64,000 nucleotides of DNA, from contig NZ_CP117879.1 in the NCBI RefSeq assembly GCF_028736155.1, positions 3,596,001 to 3,660,000 of the forward strand, given 5' to 3'. Made by a program: the position numbers and the translations under genes. This document shows positions 1 to 28,599 of this stretch, piece after piece; position 1 is the first letter of the stretch; the number at the start of each line of letters is the position of its first letter. The notes below the pieces were generated by a model. That model did not search any database. It saw nothing but the letters and a program-made list of their open reading frames with translations, and was not told the DNA's origin. This DNA comes from Flavobacterium sp. KACC 22763 (GTDB lineage: Bacteria; Bacteroidota; Bacteroidia; Flavobacteriales; Flavobacteriaceae).

Positions 1-924
1 ACAGCTGATAAAAACAACTGGCATAATTATTTTGTAACCATACAAGATTTCATTTCGAAGATCTTTATCTTCTTTTAATGAAGAGAGCTTCGGCAAATAA
101 TAAGTGCTTAATGCTGTTGTTATTAATAATAAATATCCATCTGACACCTTCATCATTCCTTGCCAATATCCCGCCGCATCCAAACCAATTTTTGAAATTA
201 CCATATCACGTAGTAAAATCTGAACAACAGGAGCTGTAAATACAGAAACTAAAGCCATTAAACTAAAGCCTCCAAGTTTCTTTGCAAGCGTTTTATCAAA
301 TGAATACTTAAAATAACTCCATGAAAACCAATTGCTTTTAATCACAAAGAAGAGAGTAATAAAAAAAACTATAGATTGGGAAAGAACAATAGAATACAAA
401 GCTCCTTCAATTTTGCAAAAGTAAACTAATAATACCGTAAATATTAGACCTACTAAACTCCCAAATGTATTTACAATTGTATATTTCTTTATTTCACTTT
501 TGCCATTTAAAATAGAAATCAAAAGATTATTTAATGAATAAAAAATTATTGTTATCCCTAAAACTCTAATTGCATTATTGTAAATAGAGTTTTTTAGTAT
601 TAAATTTGAAAAATAATTAGCCCATATAAATAAGAAAAAACCAAAAAAAAAGGAGCAAAACATTGAAATTCTTAATGCAGTACTGAGCATTTTCTTTTGT
701 TTAAGCTCATTGTTTTCATATTCGGCTGTATATTTTACTACTCCCGTGTTAATTGCTCCATTAGAAACTGTCAAAATAATGGCAACAAAATTTGTAAATT
801 GACCAATTACTGCAACACCAGCAGGTCCCGTAAATATTGCTACAATTTTATTAGCAATAAACCCAGAAGCAATGCGTATAAATGTTGTAATAGCAGAATA
901 AAGAGAAGTTTTAATTAATTTCAA
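1..924 (-). CDS. wzx: Wzx/WzxE-type O-antigen flippase, C-terminus cut by window edge
   Basis: An open frame runs from 924 to base 1 (308 codons, no stop) and continues outside the window. It begins with TTG at 922-924, giving MKLIKTSLYSA; no ATG lies nearby upstream in frame. The protein is very hydrophobic, with many predicted membrane helices and the N-terminal pattern of the polysaccharide-biosynthesis MATE-like flippases (FIANKIVAIFTGPAGVAVIG near residues 22-41). Such proteins move undecaprenyl-linked repeat units across the inner membrane. It starts 5 bp after the stop of the aminotransferase gene, so it is probably the next gene of the same operon. The family call is confident; the substrate is unknown. 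Confidence 0.85.
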   Translation of the reverse strand, partial: MKLIKTSLYSAITTFIRIASGFIANKIVAIFTGPAGVAVIGQFTNFVAIILTVSNGAINTGVVKYTAEYENNELKQKKMLSTALRISMFCSFFFGFFLFIWANYFSNLILKNSIYNNAIRVLGITIIFYSLNNLLISILNGKSEIKKYTIVNTFGSLVGLIFTVLLVYFCKIEGALYSIVLSQSIVFFITLFFVIKSNWFSWSYFKYSFDKTLAKKLGGFSLMALVSVFTAPVVQILLRDMVISKIGLDAAGYWQGMMKVSDGYLLLITTALSTYYLPKLSSLKEDKDLRNEILYGYKIIMPVVFISC

Positions 925-929
925 AATAC

Positions 930-2027
930 TTAAAACTTATTTAAAACTTCTACGATTCTCGCTATTTCATCATTACTCATAACAGGACTAATTGGCAAAC
1001 TCAATACTTCTTCATGTATTTTCTCCGTTATTGGTAAAGAAATACTTGACATCTCAGAATAACATTCTTGTTTATGCAGAGGAATCGGGTAATGTATTAA
1101 AGTCTGAATTTTATGCTCTTGTAGATAAATCTGTAATTCATCACGGTTATTTGCACGAATCACAAAAAGATGCCAAACATGTTCTTCTGTTTTATTAATA
1201 TGTGGCAATATTATTTTATCATTCTTTATATTCTGCATATAATAATTCGCTATCTCTCGACGCAAAATTGTTTCATTATCTAAATAATTCATTTTAACAT
1301 TTAGAAATGCCGCTTGAATTTCATCCATACGACTGTTTAACCCTTGATATTGATTTATATATTTTTGAGCGGAGCCGTAATTTGCTAGAGTACGTATTAC
1401 TTTAGCTAATTCAATATCTTTCGCAGTGACAGCCCCTGAATCACCCAGTGCTCCTAAATTCTTCCCTGGATAAAAACTAAATCCAGCTGCATCTCCTAAA
1501 TTACCTGTTCTAATACCATTCCAACACGCTCCAATAGCCTGAGCGTTATCTTCAATTAATTTTAAATTATTAGATTTGGCTAAGATTTCAAGTTCTTCAC
1601 TCCAACAAGCACGTCCATAAAGATGAACTATCATTATAGCTTTAGTTTTTGAGGTAATCTTATCTTTTAATAAATTTAAATCTAGATTGTAAGTATCTAA
1701 ATCTGGTTCTACAAGAATAGGAATCAATTTATTGTCAGTAATGGCTAAAACAGAGGCTATGTAAGTATTAGCAGGAACAATAATTTCATCCCCTTCTTGC
1801 ATTACCCCCAATTCGATATAGGCTTTAAAAATAAGGCGTAAAGCATCTAAACCATTAGCAACCGCTACTGCATTTCCACCCCCTTGATAAGTTTCGAGAT
1901 TTTTTTCGAACTCCTTTACTCTCTCCCCTAATAAATACCACCCGCTGTCAATTACCTCATCTGCAACTTTTTTTAATTCAGTTGTATATTGAGCATTTAT
2001 TTTTTGTAAATCTAAAAATTTAATCAT
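930..2027 (-). CDS. DegT/DnrJ/EryC1 sugar aminotransferase (FdtB/QdtB-like)
   Basis: This 365-residue PLP enzyme has the full family length. The Schiff-base lysine is K189 in [13 protein letters not shown], and the PLP-contacting acidic pair is in [10 protein letters not shown] (residues 157-166). Family members transfer an amino group from glutamate to a keto-sugar nucleotide. With rmlB and two FdtA-like ketoisomerases in the same operon, the likely substrate is a dTDP-3-keto-6-deoxyhexose, giving dTDP-3-amino-3,6-dideoxyhexose (Fuc3N or Qui3N). The 3 bp gap to the KAS III gene upstream supports co-transcription. The exact sugar stereochemistry cannot be read from sequence. Confidence 0.85.
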
Positions 2028-2030
2028 ATT

Positions 2031-3008
2031 TTACTTTTTATATATAACAACTGCTCCCCAAGAATACCCTACTCCGAATCCTGCCAAAAGAAAATTATTT
2101 TCATATGTCGACTCTTTAATTTTGTTTTTCAAGACAATAGGTATAGTTGAAGAAACAGTATTCCCATAATTTTCCATATCGATAATAAATTTATCTTTTG
2201 GAATATTAATTTTTTTTCTGAGATATTCTAACATAAAAGTGTTAGCTTGATGGAAAACAAAAGCCCCTATTGAATCAATGCTCTCATTGTTTTTTTCCAA
2301 AGTCTTACTAATCAGTTCTGGCACAGCTTTAGCGGTAAAATTGAATATTTCTGGACCATTCATAAAAAGATTATTATCATTAGCTTCATCAGAATCTAAA
2401 ATTTTAGCATTCTTAACAGCTCCATTTTTAACTATCAAATTTTGGAAACCACTCCCATCACTTCCTAATGAAAACTCACCAATTCTATACAACCCATTAT
2501 CTGATATTAAAGTGGCAGAAGACGCATCACCAAATATACTACGATTGCCTTTATCTTTTTCATGAATATATTTTGAATACATTTCTGCTGTAACAAGAAT
2601 AACATTCTTAGCAACCTTAGAAATGATTAAGCCTTTGGCCAAAGAAAGTCCATAGATATACCCTGAACAACCTTGATTTATATCAATAGCAGCACAATTA
2701 GTTGATAATCCAGATTTATTCTGTACAATACAAGCAGTAGTAGGTAAAAAATAATCGGGTGATTGAGTGCATAAGATTAAATAATCAATCTCTGATTTAT
2801 CTATTTTATATTCACTACAGAGAATATCAATAACCTCAGTCGCAATATCTGAAGTATATTGATCTTTATCGGTAATGTTACGATTTTGAATCCCTATTTT
2901 TTGAATTATTTTCTCACTATCCCACTCTGGAAATTGAGTTGCTATATCATCGTTACTTAGTTTATTGCTTGGCAAATAATAAGATACGTGCTTAATAAAG
3001 GCTTCCAT
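2031..3008 (-). CDS. Ketoacyl-ACP synthase III family (FabH-like) in sugar operon
   Basis: This 325-residue thiolase-fold protein carries the KAS III triad: Cys114 in NQGCSG, His253 in FHQAN and Asn283 in YGNTVSS. Family members condense an acyl-CoA primer with malonyl-ACP or transfer acyl groups. Its stop/start junction with the upstream acyl carrier protein gene overlaps at base 3008, so the two are almost certainly a functional pair. Sitting among aminosugar genes, it more likely supplies an acyl chain for sugar N-acylation than primes membrane fatty acid synthesis; that role is inference. Confidence 0.88.
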   Translation of the reverse strand: MEAFIKHVSYYLPSNKLSNDDIATQFPEWDSEKIIQKIGIQNRNITDKDQYTSDIATEVIDILCSEYKIDKSEIDYLILCTQSPDYFLPTTACIVQNKSGLSTNCAAIDINQGCSGYIYGLSLAKGLIISKVAKNVILVTAEMYSKYIHEKDKGNRSIFGDASSATLISDNGLYRIGEFSLGSDGSGFQNLIVKNGAVKNAKILDSDEANDNNLFMNGPEIFNFTAKAVPELISKTLEKNNESIDSIGAFVFHQANTFMLEYLRKKINIPKDKFIIDMENYGNTVSSTIPIVLKNKIKESTYENNFLLAGFGVGYSWGAVVIYKK

Positions 3009-3229
3009 TACTTACTCTCTTGAACAAAGTGATATAATTCACCTACTGATGTAAAGCTTGAAATCTTCTTTATATCAATTTTTACATTGTACTCATCATC
3101 TATCATCATTTGAATAGTTACTGCTGTAAGAGAATCCCAAAAATCTGAATTCACATAATCTGTATCGGCATTCAAATCAGTATCGACATCCTCTAATTGT
3201 CTCTTAAAATTTTCAATAAATTTTTCCAT
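3008..3229 (-). CDS. Acyl carrier protein
   Basis: This is a small acidic 73-residue protein with the phosphopantetheine site at Ser33 in the D-S-L motif (FWDSLTAV). Helix II hydrophobic spacing and length are typical of dedicated ACPs. It lies between a GNAT acyltransferase gene (11 bp upstream) and a KAS III gene (1 bp overlap downstream). That placement suggests it carries the acyl group that is built by KAS III and then moved to a sugar amine. It is probably not the fatty-acid AcpP, which normally clusters with fabF and rnc. Confidence 0.85.
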   Translation of the reverse strand: MEKFIENFKRQLEDVDTDLNADTDYVNSDFWDSLTAVTIQMMIDDEYNVKIDIKKISSFTSVGELYHFVQESK

Positions 3230-3240
3230 AATTTAATAAT

Positions 3241-3765
3241 TTAAAATAATTTTTCAAATTTTATTCTATTAGCTAAAAAGTCTTTCTTTTCTAAAACAAA
3301 ATAATAATTTAAGTCATCTTCATTAATCAATGTCGGATGAAATTTTTTATGATAATTAACGACAGATTTATTCTCTTTTCTAACTTCAAATTCTAGTCGA
3401 TCTAAATTCAGTTCTTCAAAAACATATGACTTTAAAATCACGTCAACCTTAATTACATTTATCGGATTATCGTAAAAAGGTTTTGAAACAAAACTACCAA
3501 TTTCAATAGAATTTTCCTTTTTATTATATAATCTATAAGTAGCAAAACTCATCCCATCTTCATCTATGCAAATGAAATAAAACTCCTCTTGAGACTTCTC
3601 CCTTTTCTTATAATCACAAATCCATAATTTTTGCTTTTCAATATCTGAATCTGTTTGGCTAATAAATCTTGATTTAGAAATATCTGTTCTTATGGCAACT
3701 ATAAAATCAGCATCGCTTTCTTCTACCAAACGGAGTGATATATTATACTTATTTATTTGATTCAA
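3241..3765 (-). CDS. GNAT-family N-acyltransferase
   Basis: This is a 174-residue protein with the RimJ/RimL-like GNAT layout. An N-terminal LRLVEESDADFIVAIR helix region is followed by an internal EIGSFVSKPF strand and a C-terminal LEFEVRKENKSVVNYHKK segment typical of the acyl-CoA-binding helix. It overlaps the upstream FdtA-like gene by 17 bp, so translation is probably coupled. In 3-amino-sugar pathways the last step is N-acylation, usually by a hexapeptide-repeat enzyme; this GNAT may fill that role, using acyl-CoA or the acyl-ACP encoded next door. The substrate is not proven. Confidence 0.75.
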   Translation of the reverse strand: MNQINKYNISLRLVEESDADFIVAIRTDISKSRFISQTDSDIEKQKLWICDYKKREKSQEEFYFICIDEDGMSFATYRLYNKKENSIEIGSFVSKPFYDNPINVIKVDVILKSYVFEELNLDRLEFEVRKENKSVVNYHKKFHPTLINEDDLNYYFVLEKKDFLANRIKFEKLF

Positions 3766-4183
3766 TGCTAATATAATTTAAATATTCGTCATAATTTCTT
3801 AAGTAATCTTTCTCGTCATATTCATGCGAGGCTAGAACTAAACATATAGATCCACTAGAAAAATTAATTTCAGAAGCCCAAATACCTGGAGGTATATGCA
3901 ATCCTAAATCTGGTCTATTCAACAATATTTGTCGTTTTGTCTTACCATCATCTAACAAAATTTCAAAGCTACCGCTAGCAGCTACTAAAAATTGGTGACA
4001 ATCTTTGTGAGCATGAGCTCCTCGAGACTCACCGCCAGGAATATCATATAAATAAAAAATCCTTTTTACAGCAAAAGGAATTTCACTATTGTTACTAACT
4101 GCTGTTATATGGCCATTTCTATTTCCTATCTGACTCAAATGCAAAAGACTACACTCAAAAACACTTTTTTTAGACTGCATCAT
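3749..4183 (-). CDS. FdtA/QdtA-like sugar 3,4-ketoisomerase (cupin, HxH intact)
   Basis: This 144-residue cupin of the WxcM-like/FdtA family begins at an ATG inside the end of the preceding paralogue (14 bp overlap). The motif SRGAHAHKDCHQ carries both histidines (H57 and H59) that serve catalysis in characterised FdtA/QdtA proteins. These enzymes isomerise dTDP-4-keto-6-deoxyglucose to the 3-keto sugar, between the RmlB step and the DegT aminotransferase. RmlB and the aminotransferase are both in this operon. An MM start at 4181-4183 or 4178-4180 is equally possible. Confidence 0.82.
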   Translation of the reverse strand: MMQSKKSVFECSLLHLSQIGNRNGHITAVSNNSEIPFAVKRIFYLYDIPGGESRGAHAHKDCHQFLVAASGSFEILLDDGKTKRQILLNRPDLGLHIPPGIWASEINFSSGSICLVLASHEYDEKDYLRNYDEYLNYISIESNK

Positions 4184-4577
4184 TTGTTAACATTTTAAAT
4201 TCATTAAAATCTCTAATATAATCTTCTTTAGAAAATTTCTCACTAGATATATGTAAAACTAAAGAGTTTGTGGAAAAATTCTCTATATGTCTCCAAGTTT
4301 TAGCAGGCAAATAAAGACCGTAGTAACTTCTATTCAAAGAAAATTTTTCGGTACTACCATCAATATTTGTTATTATTATATCAAAACTTCCGCTTAAGGC
4401 AATGATAATTTCTTTTTGCTCATAATATGCATGTCCTCCTCTTATTCCTCCGCCTGGCACATCATAAGTCCAAAAGGTCCTTTCAATCTTAAAGGGTATT
4501 TGGTCAGAATATTGCAAAAAAGTTAAATTGCCTCTTGGATCTTGAATCTTAGGAAAAGTAATTAATCTTGGCTTCAT
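4170..4577 (-). CDS. FdtA/QdtA-like cupin paralogue with His-to-Tyr change
   Basis: This 135-residue cupin of the same family lies directly upstream of its paralogue. The glycine-rich PGGGIRGGHAYYEQ segment aligns with the RGxHAHK motif of FdtA: the first histidine is kept (H49) but the second position is tyrosine (Y51). The rest of the fold, including the DPRGNLTFLQ start and LYLPAKTWRHIENFS strand, looks normal. It may be a ketoisomerase with altered chemistry or stereochemistry, a partner subunit, or a binding protein. The family call is firm, the activity is not. Confidence 0.8.
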   Translation of the reverse strand: MKPRLITFPKIQDPRGNLTFLQYSDQIPFKIERTFWTYDVPGGGIRGGHAYYEQKEIIIALSGSFDIIITNIDGSTEKFSLNRSYYGLYLPAKTWRHIENFSTNSLVLHISSEKFSKEDYIRDFNEFKMLTNDAV

Positions 4578-4650
4578 TATAAAATAATATTTTACTATTT
4601 GTTTTTTTTTAAATAGGTTGAATTAAAAAACTAAATCTCAAATCAGCTTT

Positions 4651-5724
4651 CTAATTCACATTAAGTTGTCGTAAAATCCTTCTCAATATTACAGCAATAA
4701 TGGATAAAAAAGCACCAATAAATCCGCCTAAAAGTAATGCTTTTGCCTTTCCAAACTTATTTTTAGGTAAAGGTAAAATAGGCCTGTCAATTACTTGAAT
4801 TAAAGGTGTTTCTTTACGTAAAGTTACTTTAGCTAACTCAGACTGTTTTACTAATTCAGTTAAAATTGCTGTATTAGCCTGAACATCTACTTGTCTTCTT
4901 GCAGAAGGTGCTCTACGAACATTTAAAGCTGGATTCAAATTAAATGTGTTATCATTTGCAACAGCAACACCTGTAATAGCTCCATTAAGTTCTCCTCGAA
5001 CAGAATCAACTTGCCTTTCTAAAATTGACATATTCATTCTTGCTTTCTTGCTTTTTGTTTCAACATAAAACTTACCAACCTGTATGGCTAAAGCTTCGCA
5101 AAAATACTTAGCAAACAATTCATTTTTTGAAGAAACATCCATAGTGATTATTGATACCTTTTTATCTTTTTGATTAACCCCTAAATCTGATTTAGACAAA
5201 TCAGTATACATCAATCCCAAAATACTATCTTGCTCTCTTGTGAATTTTTTTCTATCAGCATTTGGCAGAAACTCAATTGACGCAATTTTTGGCTCGTCAG
5301 ACCACTTTTTTCTCCATTCATTATTCTGAATATACATTTCTGCAAGAGAAACAACTTTACCATTTAAATTCACTGAAGACAATAGTGTTTTTTCAACCAT
5401 TGTTCTAGATTTAAAAAGTTCTGTCAAATTTGCACCCGCAAAAATTCCTCCTCCATTACCTCCTAAATCCAAGCCAAACGAGCTAGCCAAGCCTAAAGCC
5501 CCGCCTAAACCACCAGCTCCCTTTTCATCTTCGACAGCAAATGTTAATGTTGCTGTATATATAGGTTTTTTAATAAATGAATATGCTAAAGCGATTGCTG
5601 CTCCAATTATAGATGCTAATACAATTATTTTCCATTTAGAAAACAAATATATATACCATTGTCTTATTTTTTGAACAACTTCTTTTAACGACATTTCCTC
5701 GTTTTCAATATCTATATTCTCCAT
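4651..5724 (-). CDS. Wzz/GumC-like chain-length determinant protein without kinase domain
   Basis: This is a 357-residue inner-membrane protein with one membrane helix near residues 33-50 and another near 328-348. Between them is a mainly periplasmic region with a coiled-coil-like stretch (residues 205-300). A proline-rich PLPKNKFGKAK segment precedes the second helix, as is usual for Wzz proteins. No ATP-binding kinase domain follows, unlike the Wzc-like protein at 14856-17297. It sits 9 bp downstream of the SLBB export gene and likely forms the periplasmic part of a second polysaccharide export or polymerisation complex. Confidence 0.85.
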   Translation of the reverse strand: MENIDIENEEMSLKEVVQKIRQWYIYLFSKWKIIVLASIIGAAIALAYSFIKKPIYTATLTFAVEDEKGAGGLGGALGLASSFGLDLGGNGGGIFAGANLTELFKSRTMVEKTLLSSVNLNGKVVSLAEMYIQNNEWRKKWSDEPKIASIEFLPNADRKKFTREQDSILGLMYTDLSKSDLGVNQKDKKVSIITMDVSSKNELFAKYFCEALAIQVGKFYVETKSKKARMNMSILERQVDSVRGELNGAITGVAVANDNTFNLNPALNVRRAPSARRQVDVQANTAILTELVKQSELAKVTLRKETPLIQVIDRPILPLPKNKFGKAKALLLGGFIGAFLSIIAVILRRILRQLNVN

Positions 5725-5733
5725 GAAAATGTA

Positions 5734-8217
5734 TTATTTAAAAGCAGTTACAATTAATAAAGCTAAACTGGAAACTACACTACCAATACCAACCCATTCC
5801 CCCGCAGTCATTTTTTTCTTTTCAGGCTTTTCAGGCACAACAATTTGCGAGTCAGGCTCCACTTTCGGGTAAGATTTGAAAAACAAGAATGAAGTTGTTA
5901 CCGCCGCTTTCCCGTTTGGATAAATAATATAAGCTTTTCTCTTCCATCCTTTATTATCTACACCACCAACAGAATTAATATAATATTTGAATCCTTTTCC
6001 ACTTCTATATGGAATTTCAGAAGTCAACAACACATTACCAGTAACTTTTACTCCTTCGTTATACACTGCCACTTCAATTTCGTCTCCAGGAAATAAAGTA
6101 ACATTAGAATAGTGGTTTTTATCTTTTACAATTTTTTCCCAATTAACAGGAATAGTAGTGTATTTTAATTCGTCTCTTAATTTTTTTGATAATTTAGATT
6201 TAAGAGTGTCCTTAATTTTAAGATTTGATTCTTCTAAAATTCCCTCTTTTTTCTCTAACGTTTCCTTCTTCTCCAAATTAAGATTTATACTTTCTAATTG
6301 TTCTATTTGTTCTTCTTTGATTGGTCTTTTTATCTTCATACCATCTAAATTTGCGATAGATGTTAATCCTCCTGCTCTCATTACCACATTGTAAACCCTT
6401 TCTTTTTTATTTGCCAAAACATATTTCCCCGGATAAGTTACAGCTCCGCTTACTTTTACCATTTCCGGTTTTTCATAAACCGCCATTCTACGAATATTAA
6501 TAACATCGAAAGGTTTTAAAACAAAATTTTTAATTTGTTCATTATTATCCGCGGTAATTTCTAGTTCAACTAATTCTACACGTTTAGGATCTGCATCATC
6601 AATAGCATCTGATTTAATCATTCGAGCAATCTCAACTCTTTTTGATGCCGAACCTGTTAATCCGCCTACTTGAACAACTAAGTCATTTAATGTAAGATTC
6701 TCAAAGTATTCATATTCACCCGGATTTTTTACTTCCCCATCTATTGTCACTTTATATTCTTCTCTAAACTCAAGAATAGAATATACTGTTACTATATCTT
6801 CTCTTTTTAATTCAATATCCGCATTTAAATCTCCCGACAAAGCAGCACCTAGATCAACATTAACGATTTCTGTTGTCAAATCAGTTTTTAAACGAATAAT
6901 TCGTGCTCGTTTACTATAAGCATCTTCTTTCAATCCTTCTGCTCTTGTTACAAGGTCTGAAATTCTCATTCCTTCAGTAAAAGAATAATAATCTGGTCTA
7001 AAAACAGCTCCTTCAATCTTGATACGATTTTCAAATCGATTTAAAATCTTAGTAACTCTAAAAACGTCCCCAGATTGAGGTTGATAAGAATTGTATTCGC
7101 TTTCATTTATATCGTGTACTTTAAATTCTTTTCCGGTCTTTTGCAGTACATTAACCGAAGCTGTATAAGCAAATTCATTAAATCCAGAAGCAAAATTTAA
7201 CAAATCAGAAAACTTCTCACCTTTTTTCATTTCAAAAATTCCAGGACGTTTAACTTCTCCCTCAACAGTAACTCTTTGACTATAAGCAGGAATTCTAATT
7301 ACGTCATTTTCCTTTAGGGAAACATTATCAGATTGATCTCCTTTAACTAAGAATCTATAAATGTCAATATTCTTGTAAACCTTATTGTTTCTTATCAATT
7401 CAATATTTCTATAGCTACCGTTTTTCCCAGGTCCGCCAGCCAAATGCAAAGCATTATAAACAGTTGATAATGACGATATAGAATAATTACCAGGTTGTTT
7501 ACCACCAACAATGGTAACTTTTATAGTACGTATTTTTCCTAAGCTAATGCTTACTTGAGATTGTCCAGAACGAACCGTGCTGTATACCTTAGCAATTGCT
7601 GCTTTTATTTTTTGAGTTGCAGCCTCAATAGACATCCCAGAAACCGAGATTTGTCCCACATAATCAATACTTACCTTTCCTTCTACACTTACAGGTGTAT
7701 TAGCATTATATTCTTGGACACCATAAACGCTAATTTGTAATTCATCACCAGGACCAAGAACGTAATTCATAGGAGTTGCTAAATTTAAATCGGGTTCAAA
7801 ATTCAGAGTAGGGTTATCAAACAATTCCGAACCAAAAATTAAAGTATTCAGAGAATCTTTTACTTTATCATTTTTTATTTCATTCTGTTTTCTTCCAAAT
7901 TCTGAAGTTTTCTCTCCTATCTTTGATTTACTATCTTTACTTTTATCTTTTGCATTTTTCTTCTCATAGTCATTAAGCTTAATCTTAAGTCTATTAAACT
8001 CTGTCTGACTCATCCCTTTTGAAAGCACCATCGATTCAACTTGATCTATAGTCGCATTATTACTTTTTAGCTGAGCACTAATTTTTGCTAAATCATCATC
8101 AGATAAGTAATCAACTTTCACTGTACTTAAATCTTTAGATTTCATAATATCTTGTGCTTTCGCATTAAAAGTAATTAATGCAAAAAACAGGGTAAGAACG
8201 TATAATATTTTTTTCAT
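5734..8217 (-). CDS. Multi-SLBB polysaccharide export protein (Wza-type)
   Basis: The frame is open to 8310, but the ATG at 8215-8217 gives a standard signal peptide (MKKILYVLTLFFALITFNAKAQ minus the last residues) and removes overlap with rmlB, so I place the start there (827 aa). A Poly_export domain (GPGDELQISVYGV, near residue 150) is followed by several SLBB repeats marked by VxVxGxVxxPG patterns (for example RVTVEGEVKRPG and KVTIDGEVKNPG). The protein ends in a C-terminal membrane helix (WVGIGSVVSSLALLIVTAF). Such proteins form the outer-membrane/periplasmic export channel. It is much longer than the Wza-like lipoprotein at 17313-18104. Confidence 0.87.
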   Translation of the reverse strand: MKKILYVLTLFFALITFNAKAQDIMKSKDLSTVKVDYLSDDDLAKISAQLKSNNATIDQVESMVLSKGMSQTEFNRLKIKLNDYEKKNAKDKSKDSKSKIGEKTSEFGRKQNEIKNDKVKDSLNTLIFGSELFDNPTLNFEPDLNLATPMNYVLGPGDELQISVYGVQEYNANTPVSVEGKVSIDYVGQISVSGMSIEAATQKIKAAIAKVYSTVRSGQSQVSISLGKIRTIKVTIVGGKQPGNYSISSLSTVYNALHLAGGPGKNGSYRNIELIRNNKVYKNIDIYRFLVKGDQSDNVSLKENDVIRIPAYSQRVTVEGEVKRPGIFEMKKGEKFSDLLNFASGFNEFAYTASVNVLQKTGKEFKVHDINESEYNSYQPQSGDVFRVTKILNRFENRIKIEGAVFRPDYYSFTEGMRISDLVTRAEGLKEDAYSKRARIIRLKTDLTTEIVNVDLGAALSGDLNADIELKREDIVTVYSILEFREEYKVTIDGEVKNPGEYEYFENLTLNDLVVQVGGLTGSASKRVEIARMIKSDAIDDADPKRVELVELEITADNNEQIKNFVLKPFDVINIRRMAVYEKPEMVKVSGAVTYPGKYVLANKKERVYNVVMRAGGLTSIANLDGMKIKRPIKEEQIEQLESINLNLEKKETLEKKEGILEESNLKIKDTLKSKLSKKLRDELKYTTIPVNWEKIVKDKNHYSNVTLFPGDEIEVAVYNEGVKVTGNVLLTSEIPYRSGKGFKYYINSVGGVDNKGWKRKAYIIYPNGKAAVTTSFLFFKSYPKVEPDSQIVVPEKPEKKKMTAGEWVGIGSVVSSLALLIVTAFK

Positions 8218-8249
8218 ATAAAAGGAAAAATTATTTTTAAAGATATTTC

Positions 8250-9296
8250 TTATGAGTATTGCTTTTGATAATACTCTTTGTAAGCTCCTGATGTAACATT
8301 CTGAAGCCACTCTTGATTATTTAAGTACCAATTTATAGTCTTTTCTAATCCTTCTTCAAAAGTCACAGAAGGCGTCCATCCTAGTTCTTTATTAATTTTT
8401 GAAGCATCTATTGCATAACGCAAATCATGACCAGGCCTATCTTTAACATAGGCAATAAGTTTTTCAGAAGTCCCAACTTTTCTTGCAAGTTTACCATCCA
8501 TTATTTTACATAATAACTTGACAAGATCTATATTTTTCCATTCATTAAATCCGCCAATGTTATATGTTTCATGATTCTTTCCTTCATGAAAAACCAAATC
8601 TATTGCAATGGCATGATCTTCTACGAACAACCAATCTCTTGTATAATTTCCATCACCATATACTGGTAGAGATTTGTTATTAATAATATTATTGATAAAC
8701 AAAGGAATTAATTTTTCAGGGAAGTGGTATGAACCATAGTTATTTGAACAATTAGTTAAAACATAAGGCAATCCATAAGTCTCACCATATGCCCTCACAA
8801 AATGATCTGAACTTGCTTTTGAAGCCGAATACGGAGAGTTTGGATCATATGGTGTTTCTTCAGTAAATAACCCTGTAGAACCCAAAGAACCATAAACCTC
8901 ATCTGTACTAATATGATAAAACCTTTTTCCATCAAAGTTTCCTTTCCATTGATTCTTTGCTGCATTTAGCAAATTCATTGTACCAATAACATTTGTTTTA
9001 ACGAATGCCAGAGGATCTTCGATTGAACGATCTACATGAGATTCTGCTGCTAAATGCAAAACTCCGTCAAATTCATGAAGATTAAAAAGATCATTAATAA
9101 AAGTTTCATCAACAATATCTCCTTTTACGAAAGTATAATTCGGTTTATTTTCGATGTCCTTAATATTTTCAAGATTTCCAGCATAAGTCAATGCATCTAA
9201 ATTGAAAATTTGATATTCCGGATATTTGTTTACAAAACGTCTTACTACATGAGAACCTATAAAACCAGCGCCTCCCGTTATTAGAATTTTTTTCAT
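8250..9296 (-). CDS. rmlB: dTDP-glucose 4,6-dehydratase
   Basis: This is a 348-residue extended SDR enzyme. The NAD-binding motif GGAGFIGSHV is at residues 8-17, the catalytic Thr-Asp-Glu at 131-133 (STDEVYGS), and Tyr156/Lys160 lie in YSASK. It converts dTDP-glucose to dTDP-4-keto-6-deoxyglucose, the entry point for the ketoisomerase and aminotransferase steps encoded downstream. rmlA, rmlC and rmlD are not in the window. dTDP-glucose must therefore come from an rmlA elsewhere, and the absence of rmlCD here fits an amino-deoxy sugar rather than rhamnose. Confidence 0.93.
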   Translation of the reverse strand: MKKILITGGAGFIGSHVVRRFVNKYPEYQIFNLDALTYAGNLENIKDIENKPNYTFVKGDIVDETFINDLFNLHEFDGVLHLAAESHVDRSIEDPLAFVKTNVIGTMNLLNAAKNQWKGNFDGKRFYHISTDEVYGSLGSTGLFTEETPYDPNSPYSASKASSDHFVRAYGETYGLPYVLTNCSNNYGSYHFPEKLIPLFINNIINNKSLPVYGDGNYTRDWLFVEDHAIAIDLVFHEGKNHETYNIGGFNEWKNIDLVKLLCKIMDGKLARKVGTSEKLIAYVKDRPGHDLRYAIDASKINKELGWTPSVTFEEGLEKTINWYLNNQEWLQNVTSGAYKEYYQKQYS

Positions 9297-9312
9297 TCGT
9301 GACTAATTTCTA

Positions 9313-10320
9313 TTAATTTAATAAATCTGAATTTTGTTTTTCCAATTCGCTATAGATATCTTTCACATCTTGTGAATTTTCTTTTTGCAAAATTAGATTG
9401 GCAGTTTTTGTATAGACAAAGATGGTATTTTTCAATCCAAGAAAAGTGGTGTGCTTATCACAGCCAATAACCATATTTCCATTTGAATCTGTATAGTGCC
9501 CCTTTGAATTTAAATAATCATATACGGATTCAAAAGAACCTAAATCTGACCAAGAGAACGACGCAGGAACAACCTTAATTTTTTTGCTTCTTTCCATTAC
9601 AGCATAATCAATACTGATAGAAGGGATTTCCATTGATAAATCTAAATCTAAAAATCCTTCTTTACTAACTTCCCATACCGTTTTTGATTTCTCATAAACA
9701 TCAGGTTGGAAATTTTTCAATTCTTCTAAAAGAACGCTTGCTTTAAAGCAAAACATTCCGCTATTCCATAAAAAATTCCCTTTTGCAATAAACTCTTTCG
9801 CTGTCGTTTCATTTGGTTTTTCGCGGAAAGAAATTACATTATCTCCTTCAGCTTCAATATAACCGTATCCCGTTTCTGGTTTCGTAGGAATAACACCGAA
9901 AGTTACAATAAAGCCCTCATTAGCTTTTGTAATAGCCTGATTCATAGCCTGATTATAATCTTCCATTTGATCTATAATATGATCGGATGGCGTAATAATT
10001 AAAATATCTTCAGGGTTTGATGCAAAAGCAGCGAAAGCAATTGCCGCAGCCGTGTTTCGTGGAGTCGCTTCCACAATATTTACGTACGAAGTATTGGTCT
10101 TATCCATTACTTGCCCACTTAATTGATGATTGTCAATATTTCCAACCACCATTACTTTTTTAGCTAAATGGCTATTGCGCTCAACAGTCATTTCAAACAA
10201 AGATTTTTCTTCAAATATTTCTAGATATTGTTTCGGCCTACTTTTTCTAGAAAGAGGCCATAATCTACTTCCAACTCCTCCTGTAAGGATTACGTGCGTT
10301 ATCGTTTTATCTGAATTCAT
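9313..10320 (-). CDS. manC: Mannose-1-phosphate guanylyltransferase (single-domain)
   Basis: This 335-residue nucleotidyltransferase has the signature GGVGSRLWPLSRKSRPKQ at residues 14-31 and FREKP near residue 170. It makes GDP-mannose from GTP and mannose-1-phosphate for capsule or O-antigen sugars. It lacks the C-terminal phosphomannose-isomerase cupin domain found in long ManC proteins, so that activity must come from elsewhere. It sits 16 bp upstream of rmlB in the same operon. Confidence 0.88.
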   Translation of the reverse strand: MNSDKTITHVILTGGVGSRLWPLSRKSRPKQYLEIFEEKSLFEMTVERNSHLAKKVMVVGNIDNHQLSGQVMDKTNTSYVNIVEATPRNTAAAIAFAAFASNPEDILIITPSDHIIDQMEDYNQAMNQAITKANEGFIVTFGVIPTKPETGYGYIEAEGDNVISFREKPNETTAKEFIAKGNFLWNSGMFCFKASVLLEELKNFQPDVYEKSKTVWEVSKEGFLDLDLSMEIPSISIDYAVMERSKKIKVVPASFSWSDLGSFESVYDYLNSKGHYTDSNGNMVIGCDKHTTFLGLKNTIFVYTKTANLILQKENSQDVKDIYSELEKQNSDLLN

Positions 10321-10344
10321 ATATTTTTAAATAAAAAAGGAAAT

Positions 10345-11634
10345 CTAAAGTCTATTGTCTGCCAAAGATCCTAAAACTCCTTTTACATCATAAATTAAAC
10401 TTTTCTCTTTTTGCAGATTCGAAAATTCTATTTGAAGAAACTCCGAATGGGCTACCCCTAATACCAATGCGTCAAATTTTTGTTCAGGAATAGAATTAAT
10501 AGTCTTTAATTTATATTCTCTTTTAACTTCTTCGGGATTAGCCAAAGGATCAAAAATAGTAACCGCTATTCCGTAATCTTTTAATGCTTTTATAACATCT
10601 ACAATCTTAGTATTTCTAACGTCTGGGCAGTTCTCTTTGAACGTTATCCCTAACATTAACAGCTCAGCTCCATTAACAGAAATGCCTTTTTTAATCATTA
10701 ACTTCACTATCTGTGAAGCTACGTACTCACCCATACTGTCATTTAGACGTCTTCCCGCCAAAATTATTTCAGGATGATATCCAAATTCTTGTGCTCTTTG
10801 TGCTAAGTAGTAGGGATCTACACCAATACAATGTCCCCCTACAAGACCTGGTTTAAAAGGCAAAAAATTCCATTTTGTCGAAGCTGCGGCCAATACTTCT
10901 TGTGTATCAATATTCATTAAGTTGAATATTTTAGCTAGTTCATTTACAAAAGCAATATTAATATCTCGCTGAGAGTTCTCAATAACTTTTGCTGCTTCTG
11001 CAACTTTTATAGTAGGTGCTAAATGTGTCCCAGCTATAATTACCGATTTATATAAAGCATCAACTTTTAAACCTATTTCAAGTGTTGAACCAGAAGTAAC
11101 TTTTAGGATTTTTTCAACTGTATGTTCCTTGTCTCCTGGATTAATTCTCTCTGGAGAATATCCTGCAAAAAAATCTTCGTTAAACTTTAGACCGGAAACC
11201 TGCTCTAAAACTGGAACACATTGTTCTTCCGTAACTCCAGGATAAACTGTAGATTCGTAAATAACTATATCTCCTCTTTTTAAAACTTTACCAACAGTTT
11301 CACTAGATTTATAAAGAGGCGTTAAATCTGGTCTATTGTTTTTGTCTACTGGTGTAGGAACTGTGACTATATAATAATTACATTCAGCAATGTCCGCTCT
11401 GGAGGTAGTACAATATAATCCTTCTTTTTCATCAGTTTTATCTACCAAGACGCTTTGTAAAACATCATCCTCTACTTCTAAAGTAGTGTCTATTCCAGAT
11501 TTCAGAGAACTAACTCTCGATTCATTTATATCAAAACCAATTACAGAATATTTTGTCGCAAACAGTCGTGCTAATGGCAATCCGACATAGCCTAAACCAA
11601 TAACTGCAATTTTAATATTTTTTTCTAACTCCAT
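10345..11634 (-). CDS. UDP-HexNAc 6-dehydrogenase (WbpO/TviB-like)
   Basis: This is a 429-residue nucleotide-sugar dehydrogenase. The NAD-binding motif is GLGYVGLPLA (13-22) and the catalytic Cys269 lies in VGGHCIGVDPYYLA. Overall sequence resembles the WbpO/TviB subfamily, which oxidises UDP-GalNAc or UDP-GlcNAc to the uronic acid, rather than UDP-glucose enzymes. The WbpP-like 4-epimerase at 13862-14845 would provide UDP-GalNAc, so UDP-GalNAcA is a likely product. It is the first gene after the promoter and structured leader at 11647-11757. Confidence 0.87.
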   Translation of the reverse strand: MELEKNIKIAVIGLGYVGLPLARLFATKYSVIGFDINESRVSSLKSGIDTTLEVEDDVLQSVLVDKTDEKEGLYCTTSRADIAECNYYIVTVPTPVDKNNRPDLTPLYKSSETVGKVLKRGDIVIYESTVYPGVTEEQCVPVLEQVSGLKFNEDFFAGYSPERINPGDKEHTVEKILKVTSGSTLEIGLKVDALYKSVIIAGTHLAPTIKVAEAAKVIENSQRDINIAFVNELAKIFNLMNIDTQEVLAAASTKWNFLPFKPGLVGGHCIGVDPYYLAQRAQEFGYHPEIILAGRRLNDSMGEYVASQIVKLMIKKGISVNGAELLMLGITFKENCPDVRNTKIVDVIKALKDYGIAVTIFDPLANPEEVKREYKLKTINSIPEQKFDALVLGVAHSEFLQIEFSNLQKEKSLIYDVKGVLGSLADNRL

Positions 11635-11646
11635 TTTCTTAATTTC

Positions 11647-11711
11647 TTTAGGCTTTTAAAAATTCACGGCTTCGCCGTTCCAAGTCACAATATCTGACTC
11701 AGATGCCTAAA
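11647..11711 (-). promoter_or_regulatory. Structured 5' leader with predicted three-way junction, candidate UpxY target
   Basis: In the mRNA sense, a 7-bp outer stem (UUUAGGC at 11711-11705 with GCCUAAA at 11653-11647) encloses two hairpins. The first is AGUCA/UGACU (11699-11695 with 11687-11683, 7-nt loop). The second is ACGGC-GAA-GCCGU (11678-11666). The second contains GCGAAGC, known to form an exceptionally stable DNA mini-hairpin, here on the non-template strand. It fills most of the leader between the promoter (11727-11757) and the dehydrogenase start, directly downstream of upxY. The pairing is read from sequence; its role is inferred. Confidence 0.6.
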
Positions 11712-11726
11712 TTAATCATTTTCGCG

Positions 11727-11757
11727 CAAATATAGTATAATAACTCTAGTTAATCAA
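11727..11757 (-). promoter_or_regulatory. Promoter of the downstream polysaccharide operon
   Basis: On the minus strand the -7 box TATATTTG (11734-11727) is preceded by TTG (11757-11755) at 20 nt. This matches the Bacteroidota consensus TTG-N17-23-TAnnTTTG. Transcription would begin near 11720, giving a leader of roughly 85 nt. Confidence 0.75.
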
Positions 11758-11847
11758 TACGGTTTCCCGTAATACTCAAAAACAAATTGTTAATAAAAAA
11801 ACGCTTAACCACAATGCGTTATTAATCAGGCTGTAAATAATTACTTT

Positions 11848-11895
11848 ATAAAAAAAACAGAAGAAAAAAATCTAAAAAAGACTTTCTCTTCTGTT
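11848..11895 (-). terminator. Terminator after upxY
   Basis: AACAGAAGA/TCTTCTGTT arms (11895-11887 and 11864-11856 in the minus sense) enclose a 22-nt loop and are followed by a run of T. It lies about 20 bp past the upxY stop and separates the two polysaccharide transcription units. The loop is long, so strength is uncertain. Confidence 0.6.
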
Positions 11896-11916
11896 AATTT
11901 TACTAGGATAACGCTA

Positions 11917-12381
11917 TTATTTATATTTTATTTTCAAAATACATCCTAAACTTTCCAAAACTAAAGTGTAATAATTATTAGAAACCTCTTGTACCACTCC
12001 ACTTTGATTGCTGAATACACCCGATTCTAATTTAATTTTATCTCCAACTTGTATAGCAGATACTGAAACATCGCTAATATTAGGTGCCTTAAGACTTTTC
12101 TTTATTGTTTCTATTTCTTCATCTTTCACAATTGCGGGTTTTCCCAGCCAAAACAAATACCGAACTACTCCTTGTGCTTGAAAAACTACATTACGATCGA
12201 AATCTGACAAATGAACAAAAACATAGGAATTAAAAAGAGGCGTTTCAACTTTCTTTTTTCGATCTGACCACTGTTTTATCTGAGTAATCAGTGGACAATA
12301 GCATTCTATTCCCAGTTGATTAAGTTTGTCTGCAACTTTCTTCTCCCATTTAGGCTTTGTATAAACTACGTACCAATTCAT
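11917..12381 (-). CDS. upxY: UpxY-family transcription antiterminator (NusG paralogue)
   Basis: This 154-residue protein has an N-terminal NGN domain (MNWYVVYTKPKWEKKVADKL, residues 1-20, then PLITQIKQWSDRKKK and PLFNSYVFV) and a C-terminal KOW-like domain (GDKIKLESGVFSNQSGVVQEV, about residues 108-128). In Bacteroides, UpxY proteins bind the leader of their own capsule operon and prevent premature termination. It is last in the wza-wzc-epimerase-ugd unit and directly upstream of the structured leader at 11647-11711, its probable target. Distinguishing it from general NusG rests on length and location. Confidence 0.88.
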   Translation of the reverse strand: MNWYVVYTKPKWEKKVADKLNQLGIECYCPLITQIKQWSDRKKKVETPLFNSYVFVHLSDFDRNVVFQAQGVVRYLFWLGKPAIVKDEEIETIKKSLKAPNISDVSVSAIQVGDKIKLESGVFSNQSGVVQEVSNNYYTLVLESLGCILKIKYK

Positions 12382-12445
12382 TCTTATTCATTTAGCATGA
12401 AACAAGGCATTTTGTTCCATTTTATTTATAAACACAAAAATCTGT

Positions 12446-13837
12446 TTATGATCCAATACCTCTGTAAACGAATCCTATTGTTTCTAATTGTTTAGCATCA
12501 AGAATATTTCTCCCATCAAAGACAAAAGCTGGCTTATGCATTGAATCGTAAATCCTTTGCCAATCATAAGTTGTAAATTCATCCCATTCTGTCAAGATTG
12601 CTATTGCATGAGCATCTTTACATGCTTTATAGGCGTCCTCAAACACATTTAACGCTTTTGCATTTTCTTCACTTGATCTTGTTTCTAAATAGTTAAGATC
12701 ACTTAACATCTTATTTTCTGAAACTTTCGGATCAAAAACTGAGATTTTTGCATGTTCATTTATTAAATCATCAGCAACATAAATTGCCGCAGATTCTCTA
12801 GTGTCGTTTGTGTCTTTTTTGAAAGCCCAACCTAAAAAAGTAATTTTCTTATCAGCTACTGTATTGTATAATGTCTGAACAATTTTACTTGAGAATCTTC
12901 TTTTTTGATGATCGTTCATTATAATAACTTGCTCCCAATAATCCGCAACTTCATTCAATCCATATGACTTTGCTATGTAAACTAAATTTAAAATATCTTT
13001 TTGGAAACAAGAACCTCCAAAACCTACAGAAGCTTTTAAGAATTTCGATCCAATTCTGCTATCCATCCCAATTGCTCTTGCTACTTCATTTACATCAGCC
13101 CCTGTTTTTTCACATAACTCTGACATTGCATTAATAGAGGAAATACGCTGTGCTAAAAATGCATTTGCGGTAAGTTTAGACAATTCTGACGACCAAACAT
13201 TTGTTGTCAAAATTTGATCTTTCCCTACCCAATTTGAATAGACTTCTACTAGCGAATTAATCGCCTCTTCTCCTTCTAGCGTTGTATCTCCACCAATTAA
13301 AATTCGGTCTGGATTTAACAAATCTGCCACTGCAGTACCCTCTGCCAAAAACTCTGGGTTAGATAAAATTTGAAATTGAACGCCATTTCCAGTGTTATCT
13401 AATATACTTTTAATTGCTTCAGCTGTTCTAACTGGCAAAGTTGATTTCTCAACTACAATTTTATTTTGTTTTGCTACTCTTGCAATTTGTCTTGCACATA
13501 ACTCAATGTATTTTAAGTCAGCCGCCATTCCTTTTCCTTTCCCGTAAGTTTTGGTTGGAGTATTAACTGAAATAAATATCATTTGCGCTTCATCTATTGC
13601 TTTATCAACATCTGTAGAAAAAAACAGATTTCTACCTCTCGCTTCTGCTACAATTTCAGAAAGACCTGGTTCATAAATAGGAATGTTTTCAGGATTCGGA
13701 TCATTCCAATCCGCTATTCTCTGTTCGTTTAAATCTACAACTGTAACCTGAATATACGGACATTTTTGAGCAATAACTGCCATTGTTGGCCCGCCTACAT
13801 ACCCTGCACCAATGCAGCAAATTTTTGTAATTTTCAT
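12446..13837 (-). CDS. ugd: UDP-glucose 6-dehydrogenase, eukaryote-like type
   Basis: This 463-residue enzyme has the NAD motif [13 protein letters not shown] (9-21) and catalytic Cys277 in [10 protein letters not shown]. The sequence around [19 protein letters not shown] and the insert [16 protein letters not shown] resemble the animal-type enzymes, which are also found in Bacteroidota. It oxidises UDP-glucose to UDP-glucuronate. It lies 24 bp after the epimerase gene and 64 bp before upxY, so it belongs to the first transcription unit. Confidence 0.92.
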
Positions 13838-28533: not shown

Positions 28534-28599
28534 AAAAAAAAATTTAAGGTAGAAATTATGAATTCAGGTCAAATCCTTCGATAATCTATGTTCTACCTT
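28534..28599 (-). promoter_or_regulatory. Candidate leader/attenuator hairpin before rpsD
   Basis: In the mRNA sense, AAGGUAGAA (28599-28591) pairs with UUCUACCUU (28554-28546) around a 36-nt loop. AAA and nine U (28542-28534) follow, ending 3 nt before the rpsD ATG. It resembles an attenuator or ribosomal-protein leader inside the alpha operon. Structure and S4 binding are inferred. Confidence 0.5.

Follow-up and report, generated by a model that had tools for sequence, protein, structure and literature searches.

Where, and by what signal, does the NusG paralogue UpxY join RNA polymerase at a polysaccharide locus of Flavobacterium? In a passage of a 2020 study, the recruitment modes of NusG paralogues that are encoded in their own operons were called unknown (PMC7593976). 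The window analyzed here, i.e. the whole stretch of 64,000 nucleotides, holds a upxY gene with a leader close by, and the first-pass annotation had proposed that an ops-like element, a GCGAAGC mini-hairpin within a three-way junction, serves UpxY in this leader. Recruitment in Bacteroides has reportedly since been addressed by Saba in 2024. The promoter, the stems, both hairpins, the GCGAAGC and the upxY gene (11917-12381) of that proposal were all found where it had placed them, on the minus strand (Table 1).

Table 1. Features of the upxY locus and of the leader behind it, in window coordinates.
Feature	Position	Strand	Basis or detail
upxY, NusG paralogue, 154 aa	11917..12381	minus	ORF list, profile search; predicted structure
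Terminator-like hairpin and T tract, 3' of upxY	11849..11902	minus	RNA fold z -5.1
-33/-7 promoter, TTG ... TATATTTG	11727..11757	minus	TTG 11757-11755, -7 box 11734-11727
Outer stem, 11711-11705 / 11653-11647	11647..11711	minus	not a conserved part of the element
RNA hairpin P1, proposed pause hairpin	11679..11703	minus	11703-11695 pairs with 11687-11679; covariation
TGTGACT block (TGKGACT), overlaps the 3' side of P1	11683..11689	minus	conservation
Mini-hairpin	11678-11666	minus	GCGAAGC at 11675-11669
Ops-like core GGC-GAA-GCC (X-GC-GNA-GC-Y), proposed non-template DNA mini-hairpin	11668..11676	minus	conservation, covariation
T-G at the proposed pause (-1/+1)	11665..11666	minus	conservation; placement as in ops
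TviB-like nucleotide-sugar dehydrogenase, first gene behind the element	10345..11634	minus	ORF and profile search
Co-directional polysaccharide gene run behind the element (part within the window)	1..11634	minus	ORFs, profiles

The window UpxY scored 141.2 bits against the NCBIfam profile antiterm_UpxY (NF033644, curated cut-off 100) and is therefore a member of this family. Its gene lies within or adjoining a polysaccharide locus, the genomic context expected of this family, and is flanked by ORFs for nucleotide-sugar dehydrogenases. It is the last gene ahead of a strong, T-rich terminator-like hairpin (11849-11902), which was overlooked by a consensus terminator scan that flagged the mini-hairpin instead. 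As this hairpin sits between upxY and the leader promoter, gene and leader look like separate transcription units. The co-directional run behind the element encodes glycosyltransferases, epimerases and export genes, and extends from 11634 past the window edge to at least genome position 3587067. With its length of at least about 20.6 kb, it replaces the operon of approximately 11 kb assumed earlier.

By its -33/-7 boxes, the promoter at 11727-11757 is of the Bacteroidota type. Matches to sigma-70-type promoters, from a scan not meant for Bacteroidota promoters, were at the chance level in 11000-13000 (8 versus 9.0 expected), and GCGNAGC alone was not above chance in the window (8 observed, 6.15 expected); for these reasons the case rests on conservation and comparison. 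The 91-nt leader folds at -26.1 kcal/mol, compared to a mean of -11.9 for shuffled sequences (z -5.7), and none of 200 shuffles was as good. In an Rfam 15 scan of the window, the leader element was without a match, the sole match over its gathering score being an S4-Flavobacteria ribosomal protein leader at 28554-28586 on the minus strand (45.5 bits, gathering score 35.2).

The leader is genuine, with a core whose conservation extends well outside the window. By searching 199 Flavobacterium genomes with the 146-bp region, we found matches in 47 of them at E <= 0.001, and 40 leader loci were examined, i.e. 30 including the window's own and another 10 from weaker matches. GCGNAGC was present in the expected span at 39 of the 40, one locus (L047) being without the element. 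In 37, the fetched sequence contained a recognizable UpxY gene (in L046 only part of one), and in 35 the gene that follows is the nucleotide-sugar dehydrogenase also seen in the window. Two loci, L042 and L044, have the element with upxY absent within about 1.5 kb.

For a wider comparison, UpxY genes were collected by profile search. In the genus, 115 of the 199 genomes scored over the cut-off, with 135 listed places, and the profile loci and element-search loci together comprise 134 distinct UpxY genes. The phylum set is drawn from 395 genomes, 210 of them over the cut-off, and consists of 70 loci, 30 taken by score and 40 chosen for family spread. A UpxY gene was present in 217 out of the 221 pooled loci, leaving 203 once duplicates had been removed. 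Between 200 nt before and 500 nt after the gene, GCGNAGC occurs at 117 of these 203 loci, while the 15 other words of the form GCxNyGC occur at 9-27. When a TG[TG]G anchor was placed 7-10 nt before the core, GCGNAGC was found at 106 loci and the other words at no more than two. GCTNCGC, the reverse complement of the core, does not rise above background (20 of 203 loci), meaning that only one strand is read.

A strict genus pattern, TGKGACTN{2,8}GGCGNAGCC, was searched for independently of UpxY and gave 67 matches in 65 of the 199 genomes, against one for the reversed control; it occurs a single time in the window's genome. For 64 of the matches a UpxY gene is no farther than about 3.5 kb away, and every one of the 64 is on the UpxY strand (61 after the gene, three just before it). 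The pattern is found in 63 of the 115 genomes with UpxY over the cut-off, versus two of the 84 without, an association whose Fisher p is too small because the genomes are related. Of the three matches away from UpxY (G150, G127 and G156), the one in G150 precedes ORFs read by eye as GDP-fucose synthase and GDP-mannose dehydratase. The one in G127 was taken as chance, as it falls inside an ORF read as a thioesterase. A looser copy, in genome G108 (locus L042), is in a leader ahead of ORFs that by eye appear sugar cytidylyltransferase-like. As side observations on these loci, the 3' end of upxY in L061 seems by eye to be repeated about 300 nt downstream, flanking bases included, and GTCACTTCGAGTG-like intergenic repeats are found in L050, L061 and L081.

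The element found beside many upxY genes is composed of a variable RNA hairpin, P1, overlapping TGKGACT, and then X-GC-GNA-GC-Y-R-T-G. Two of these conserved parts, TGKGACT and the T-G that comes after the core, had not been named in the first-pass annotation. A slightly different anchor yielded 109 instances at 108 loci, which are the basis of the following counts. The spacing from TGKG to X is 8 or 9 nt in 103 of the 109, the N of GNA is A in 93, G in 11, T in three and C in two, and X and Y form a standard pair in 101 (shuffled mean 84.7; reached by none of 5000 shuffles). Among the 108 instances with letters there, the T of the T-G is present in 104 and its G in 80. In 95 of 108 instances, 0-3 nt separate the end of P1 from X. 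Its fold has z < -2 in 62 and z < -1 in 88, whereas 20 have a z of -1 or above, i.e. no convincing P1. A -7 box within 130 nt was found in 60 of the 108 examined (antisense control 7, reversed control 15), and in 58 of these 60 it is located 48-58 nt before the X of the core.

In an alignment of 36 leaders (35 distinct rows), seven of the nine P1 pairs changed on both sides. The two inner pairs of the mini-hairpin are invariant, and the third is G-C in 32, A-U in two and unpaired in one. For the whole structure, none of 500 shuffles reached the observed covariation, a type of control that is inflated by the kinship of the sequences; slid partners pair in 33-37% of cells versus 85.7% for the true ones. 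Invariant in all 36 leaders are the T, the G and the second G of TGKG, the first two of them inside the P1 loop, as well as TATATTTGC of the promoter. The ops-like GCGAAGC element proposed for UpxY has held up in that it is conserved and covaries near other upxY genes, in the genus and beyond, and the check for covarying stems came out in favor of P1 and the outer mini-hairpin pair. The three-way junction is not supported: in 11 near relatives no pair of the outer stem changed on both sides, and this stem, like the junction, is confined to near relatives and was discarded as a part of the element. Covariation cannot separate a DNA from an RNA hairpin; in nearest-neighbour DNA folding of the bare 9-mers, the energy of GAA equals that of the controls, and this measure was left unused.

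Outside the genus, the pattern TGKGACTN{4,7}RGCGNAGCYRTG was applied to 395 genomes of the phylum and gave 53 matches, spread over 47 genomes and 29 genera; the control had none among those listed. Thirty of these loci were examined: at 20 a UpxY gene lies on the same strand no more than 1.5 kb away, and at the other 10 no such gene does. Three of the latter belong to an unrelated TGTGACTGAATGCGGCGAAGCCGTG stretch, and the first ORFs behind another three are a hexapeptide transferase, an epimerase and a sugar dehydrogenase. The TGTGACTGAATGCGGCGAAGCCGTG stretch (L403, L404, L406 and the Chlorobium locus L316) was set aside as unrelated, as it lies within a longer stretch of its own that is nearly identical over >100 bases in three genomes of family f18 and the Chlorobium record; the first ORF behind it in L316 and L404 is GDP-mannose dehydratase-like.

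A species-wide scan of 84,980 species, each represented by a single genome, gave at least 119 stretches, of which 80 were tabulated. Among the matches listed, a UpxY-like gene accompanies 36 of 80 on the same strand within the fetched sequence (in L291 the gene overlaps the match), and the other 44 have no such gene there. The first downstream ORF could be identified for 20 of these 44, and 12 were of nucleotide-sugar, glycosyltransferase, export or related type, with L316 to be discounted and L332 (an oxidoreductase) uncertain. The remaining eight are other or unknown, e.g. integrases, a Fic protein and a TonB-receptor-like protein. Judged from their positions, element copies ahead of polysaccharide genes without a nearby upxY suggest that UpxY may act in trans. 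Some UpxY-less matches of the phylum and species-wide scans are chance, and the Actinomycetota and Acidobacteria records in the species-wide table look like chance matches. Tannerella, Paludibacteraceae and other Bacteroidales are also represented among the matches listed. In four stretches from Paludibacteraceae or other Bacteroidales (L280, L306, L331 and L337), strict-pattern copies are clustered, with two copies each in L280 and L337, and the fetched stretches contain no UpxY-like gene.

At 95 of the 203 UpxY loci, no anchored copy was found from 200 nt before to 500 nt after upxY, and some of these carry the element 0.57-3.5 kb away. Family f18 had no anchored copy at any of 14 fetched loci; it may represent Chlorobiaceae, because one of its genomes and a Chlorobium record share an identical 135-base context. 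The element is also lacking at second (orphan) UpxYs of larger Flavobacterium genomes (L129, L133, L134, L135, L137, L138, L141 and L148). In the 47 loci from outside the genus that lack an anchored copy, k-mer counts aimed at a common replacement motif returned only low-complexity or apparently coding words, and E. coli-type GNNA loops showed no enrichment at UpxY loci that have no GNA core. By eye, several of the second UpxYs are followed by a similar antisense ORF. In L079, a single ops-resembling GGCGCGGTAGCGTC stretch, probably a chance occurrence, is found 27 nt before a Flavobacterium upxY.

Taking these data together, we consider it likely that the leader is a UpxY recruitment signal, at which polymerase would pause, be joined by UpxY and then be accompanied by it through the run of at least 20.6 kb. 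Transcription would start at the -33/-7 promoter, and after very roughly 50 nt the nascent RNA would fold P1. Polymerase would pause with T11666 at the active site and G11665 next. By its placement directly ahead of the ops core, P1 has the look of a pause hairpin: it ends 11-14 nt from the proposed RNA 3' end, a spacing that resembles a hairpin-assisted pause such as the his pause, where the distance from hairpin to 3' end is 11 nt. The non-template strand of the bubble would expose GC-GAA-GC and form a GNA mini-hairpin, presumably as DNA rather than as RNA. UpxY would join the paused complex, probably via this mini-hairpin in non-template DNA, and perhaps, as a guess, also touch the TGKGACT duplex just upstream. 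It would then replace NusG, travel along the run and prevent premature termination. Being made from the preceding operon, UpxY could act on the window leader and, in some genomes, on distant leaders in trans. Regarding the third pair, a passage of the ops work judges the outer pair unable to form within a 10-11-nt bubble (PMC5995543), and the X-Y pairing may therefore reflect RNA or a wider bubble.

The protein itself is predicted to have a NusG-like N-domain and a beta C-domain (mean pLDDT 85.6, pTM 0.59), and the modelled N-domain matches that of RfaH in the ops-paused complex 8pen with an rmsd of 2.2 over 103 columns. By alignment, the RfaH residues in direct contact with ops, K10, H20, R23 and R73, correspond to K9, K19, Q22 and Q70 of UpxY, so that the lysine alone is kept. 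A near-invariant QWSDRKK stretch of UpxY is our guess for a candidate contact. Circular dichroism, as given in a passage of PMC9247905, found one B. fragilis UpxY to be NusG-like and another protein, probably a UpxY, to be RfaH-like.

An alternative to recruitment through non-template DNA is that UpxY reads the hairpins as RNA after their exit from polymerase, as LoaP reads dfn, with P1 and the mini-hairpin stacked. Both helices do fold as RNA and covary, and GNA triloops occur in RNA too. According to a passage of PMC12691694, LoaP, which is also a NusG paralogue, binds a small RNA hairpin in a leader. We nonetheless regard RNA reading as unlikely: the T-G at a fixed distance after the core is needed by a pause site and not by the reading of an RNA hairpin, and the free N within a strict G..A fits the stable GNA mini-hairpins of DNA described in a passage of PMC4686876.

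Neither of the two further alternatives seems at all probable. If the mini-hairpin were the stem of an intrinsic terminator or attenuator that UpxY must overcome, rather than a binding site, a T tract should follow; the window stem, the one terminator-like match of the scan, is followed by GAATTTTTAA, but T stands at positions 5-8 after GCGNAGC in only 29/108, 9/108, 40/107 and 43/107 instances, and it is the loop and the T-G that are constrained instead. The palindromic GGC...GCC could suit a double-stranded operator for an ordinary transcription factor, and the ATG found 18-42 nt past the core in many relatives a translational operator at the start codon. Against both stand the asymmetry of the GNA, co-oriented with upxY in 64 of 64 cases, the background level of its reverse complement, and a distance from core to next ORF start that varies from 8 to 298 nt.

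A literature search, conducted largely on titles and passages, returned no description of a GNA element for UpxY and does not settle priority. Being short and searchable, the signal would allow UpxY regulons, including targets without a nearby upxY, to be listed in the genomes that use it, and the element offers a defined template for work on pausing, binding and structure. If the non-template DNA reading is true, what ops elements have in common would be a mini-hairpin fold and not letters.

With the UpxY/UpxZ system of Bacteroides, the locus has the UpxY family and, as proposed here, antitermination in a leader in common. UpxY and UpxZ reportedly control the capsules of Bacteroides, as Chatzidaki-Livanis is said to have described in 2009, and the work of Saba in 2024 is said to involve a paused polymerase, non-template DNA, an upstream duplex and pause-then-escape RNA hairpins. 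The Bacteroides promoter is invertible and has inverted repeats, whereas none flank the window promoter within 11600-11925. Furthermore, the target leader precedes upxY in Bacteroides but follows it in the window, though it is found before upxY at several other loci. LoaP and dfn offer another likeness, i.e. a NusG paralogue and a hairpin in the leader of a long operon; passages of PMC12691694 describe a UNCG-type RNA hairpin there, in contrast to the GNA triloop and pause-type T-G of the UpxY element.

RfaH and ops resemble the UpxY system in the polysaccharide-operon leader, the NusG paralogue and a hairpin in mid-frame. The E. coli ops sequence of 12 nt is GGCGGTAGCGTG, and the window counterpart, GGCGAAGCCGTG, differs from it, i.e. 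the element is not an ops by its sequence. Positions 2-12 of GGCGGTAGCGTG agree with a passage of PMC5995543, according to which T11-G12 induces the pause, C3:G8 closes the loop G4-A7 and RfaH reads the loop bases in the non-template strand. In ops numbering the new element is X1 G2 C3 G4 N5 A6 G7 C8 Y9 R10 T11 G12, thereby sharing a 12-nt frame with G2 C3 G4 ... T11 G12, in which the pause TG at 11-12 is assigned by sequence. While ops has a loop of four bases (GC-GGTA-GC), the UpxY element has one of three (GC-GNA-GC) plus the third pair X-Y, and adds the P1 RNA hairpin and TGKGACT in front; the UpxY C-domain is modelled as beta and not helical. A passage of PMC4686876, a work on synthetic DNA and aptamers, calls DNA hairpins extraordinarily stable when they have two or more G-C pairs and a GNA or GNNA loop. 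The UpxY core is exactly of the d(GC-GNA-GC) type described there, and by that definition it would belong to the GNA class and the GC-GGTA-GC of ops to the GNNA class; a role of the mini-hairpin in transcription is what we infer. It is quite possible, if somewhat short of probable, that RfaH and the UpxY of many Bacteroidota, polysaccharide antiterminators from two distant lineages, use the two known classes of extraordinarily stable DNA mini-hairpin as pause recruitment codes, GC-GNNA-GC (GGTA in E. coli ops) and GC-GNA-GC respectively, in which case the UpxY code would be common to many genera and one UpxY could therefore serve several leaders.
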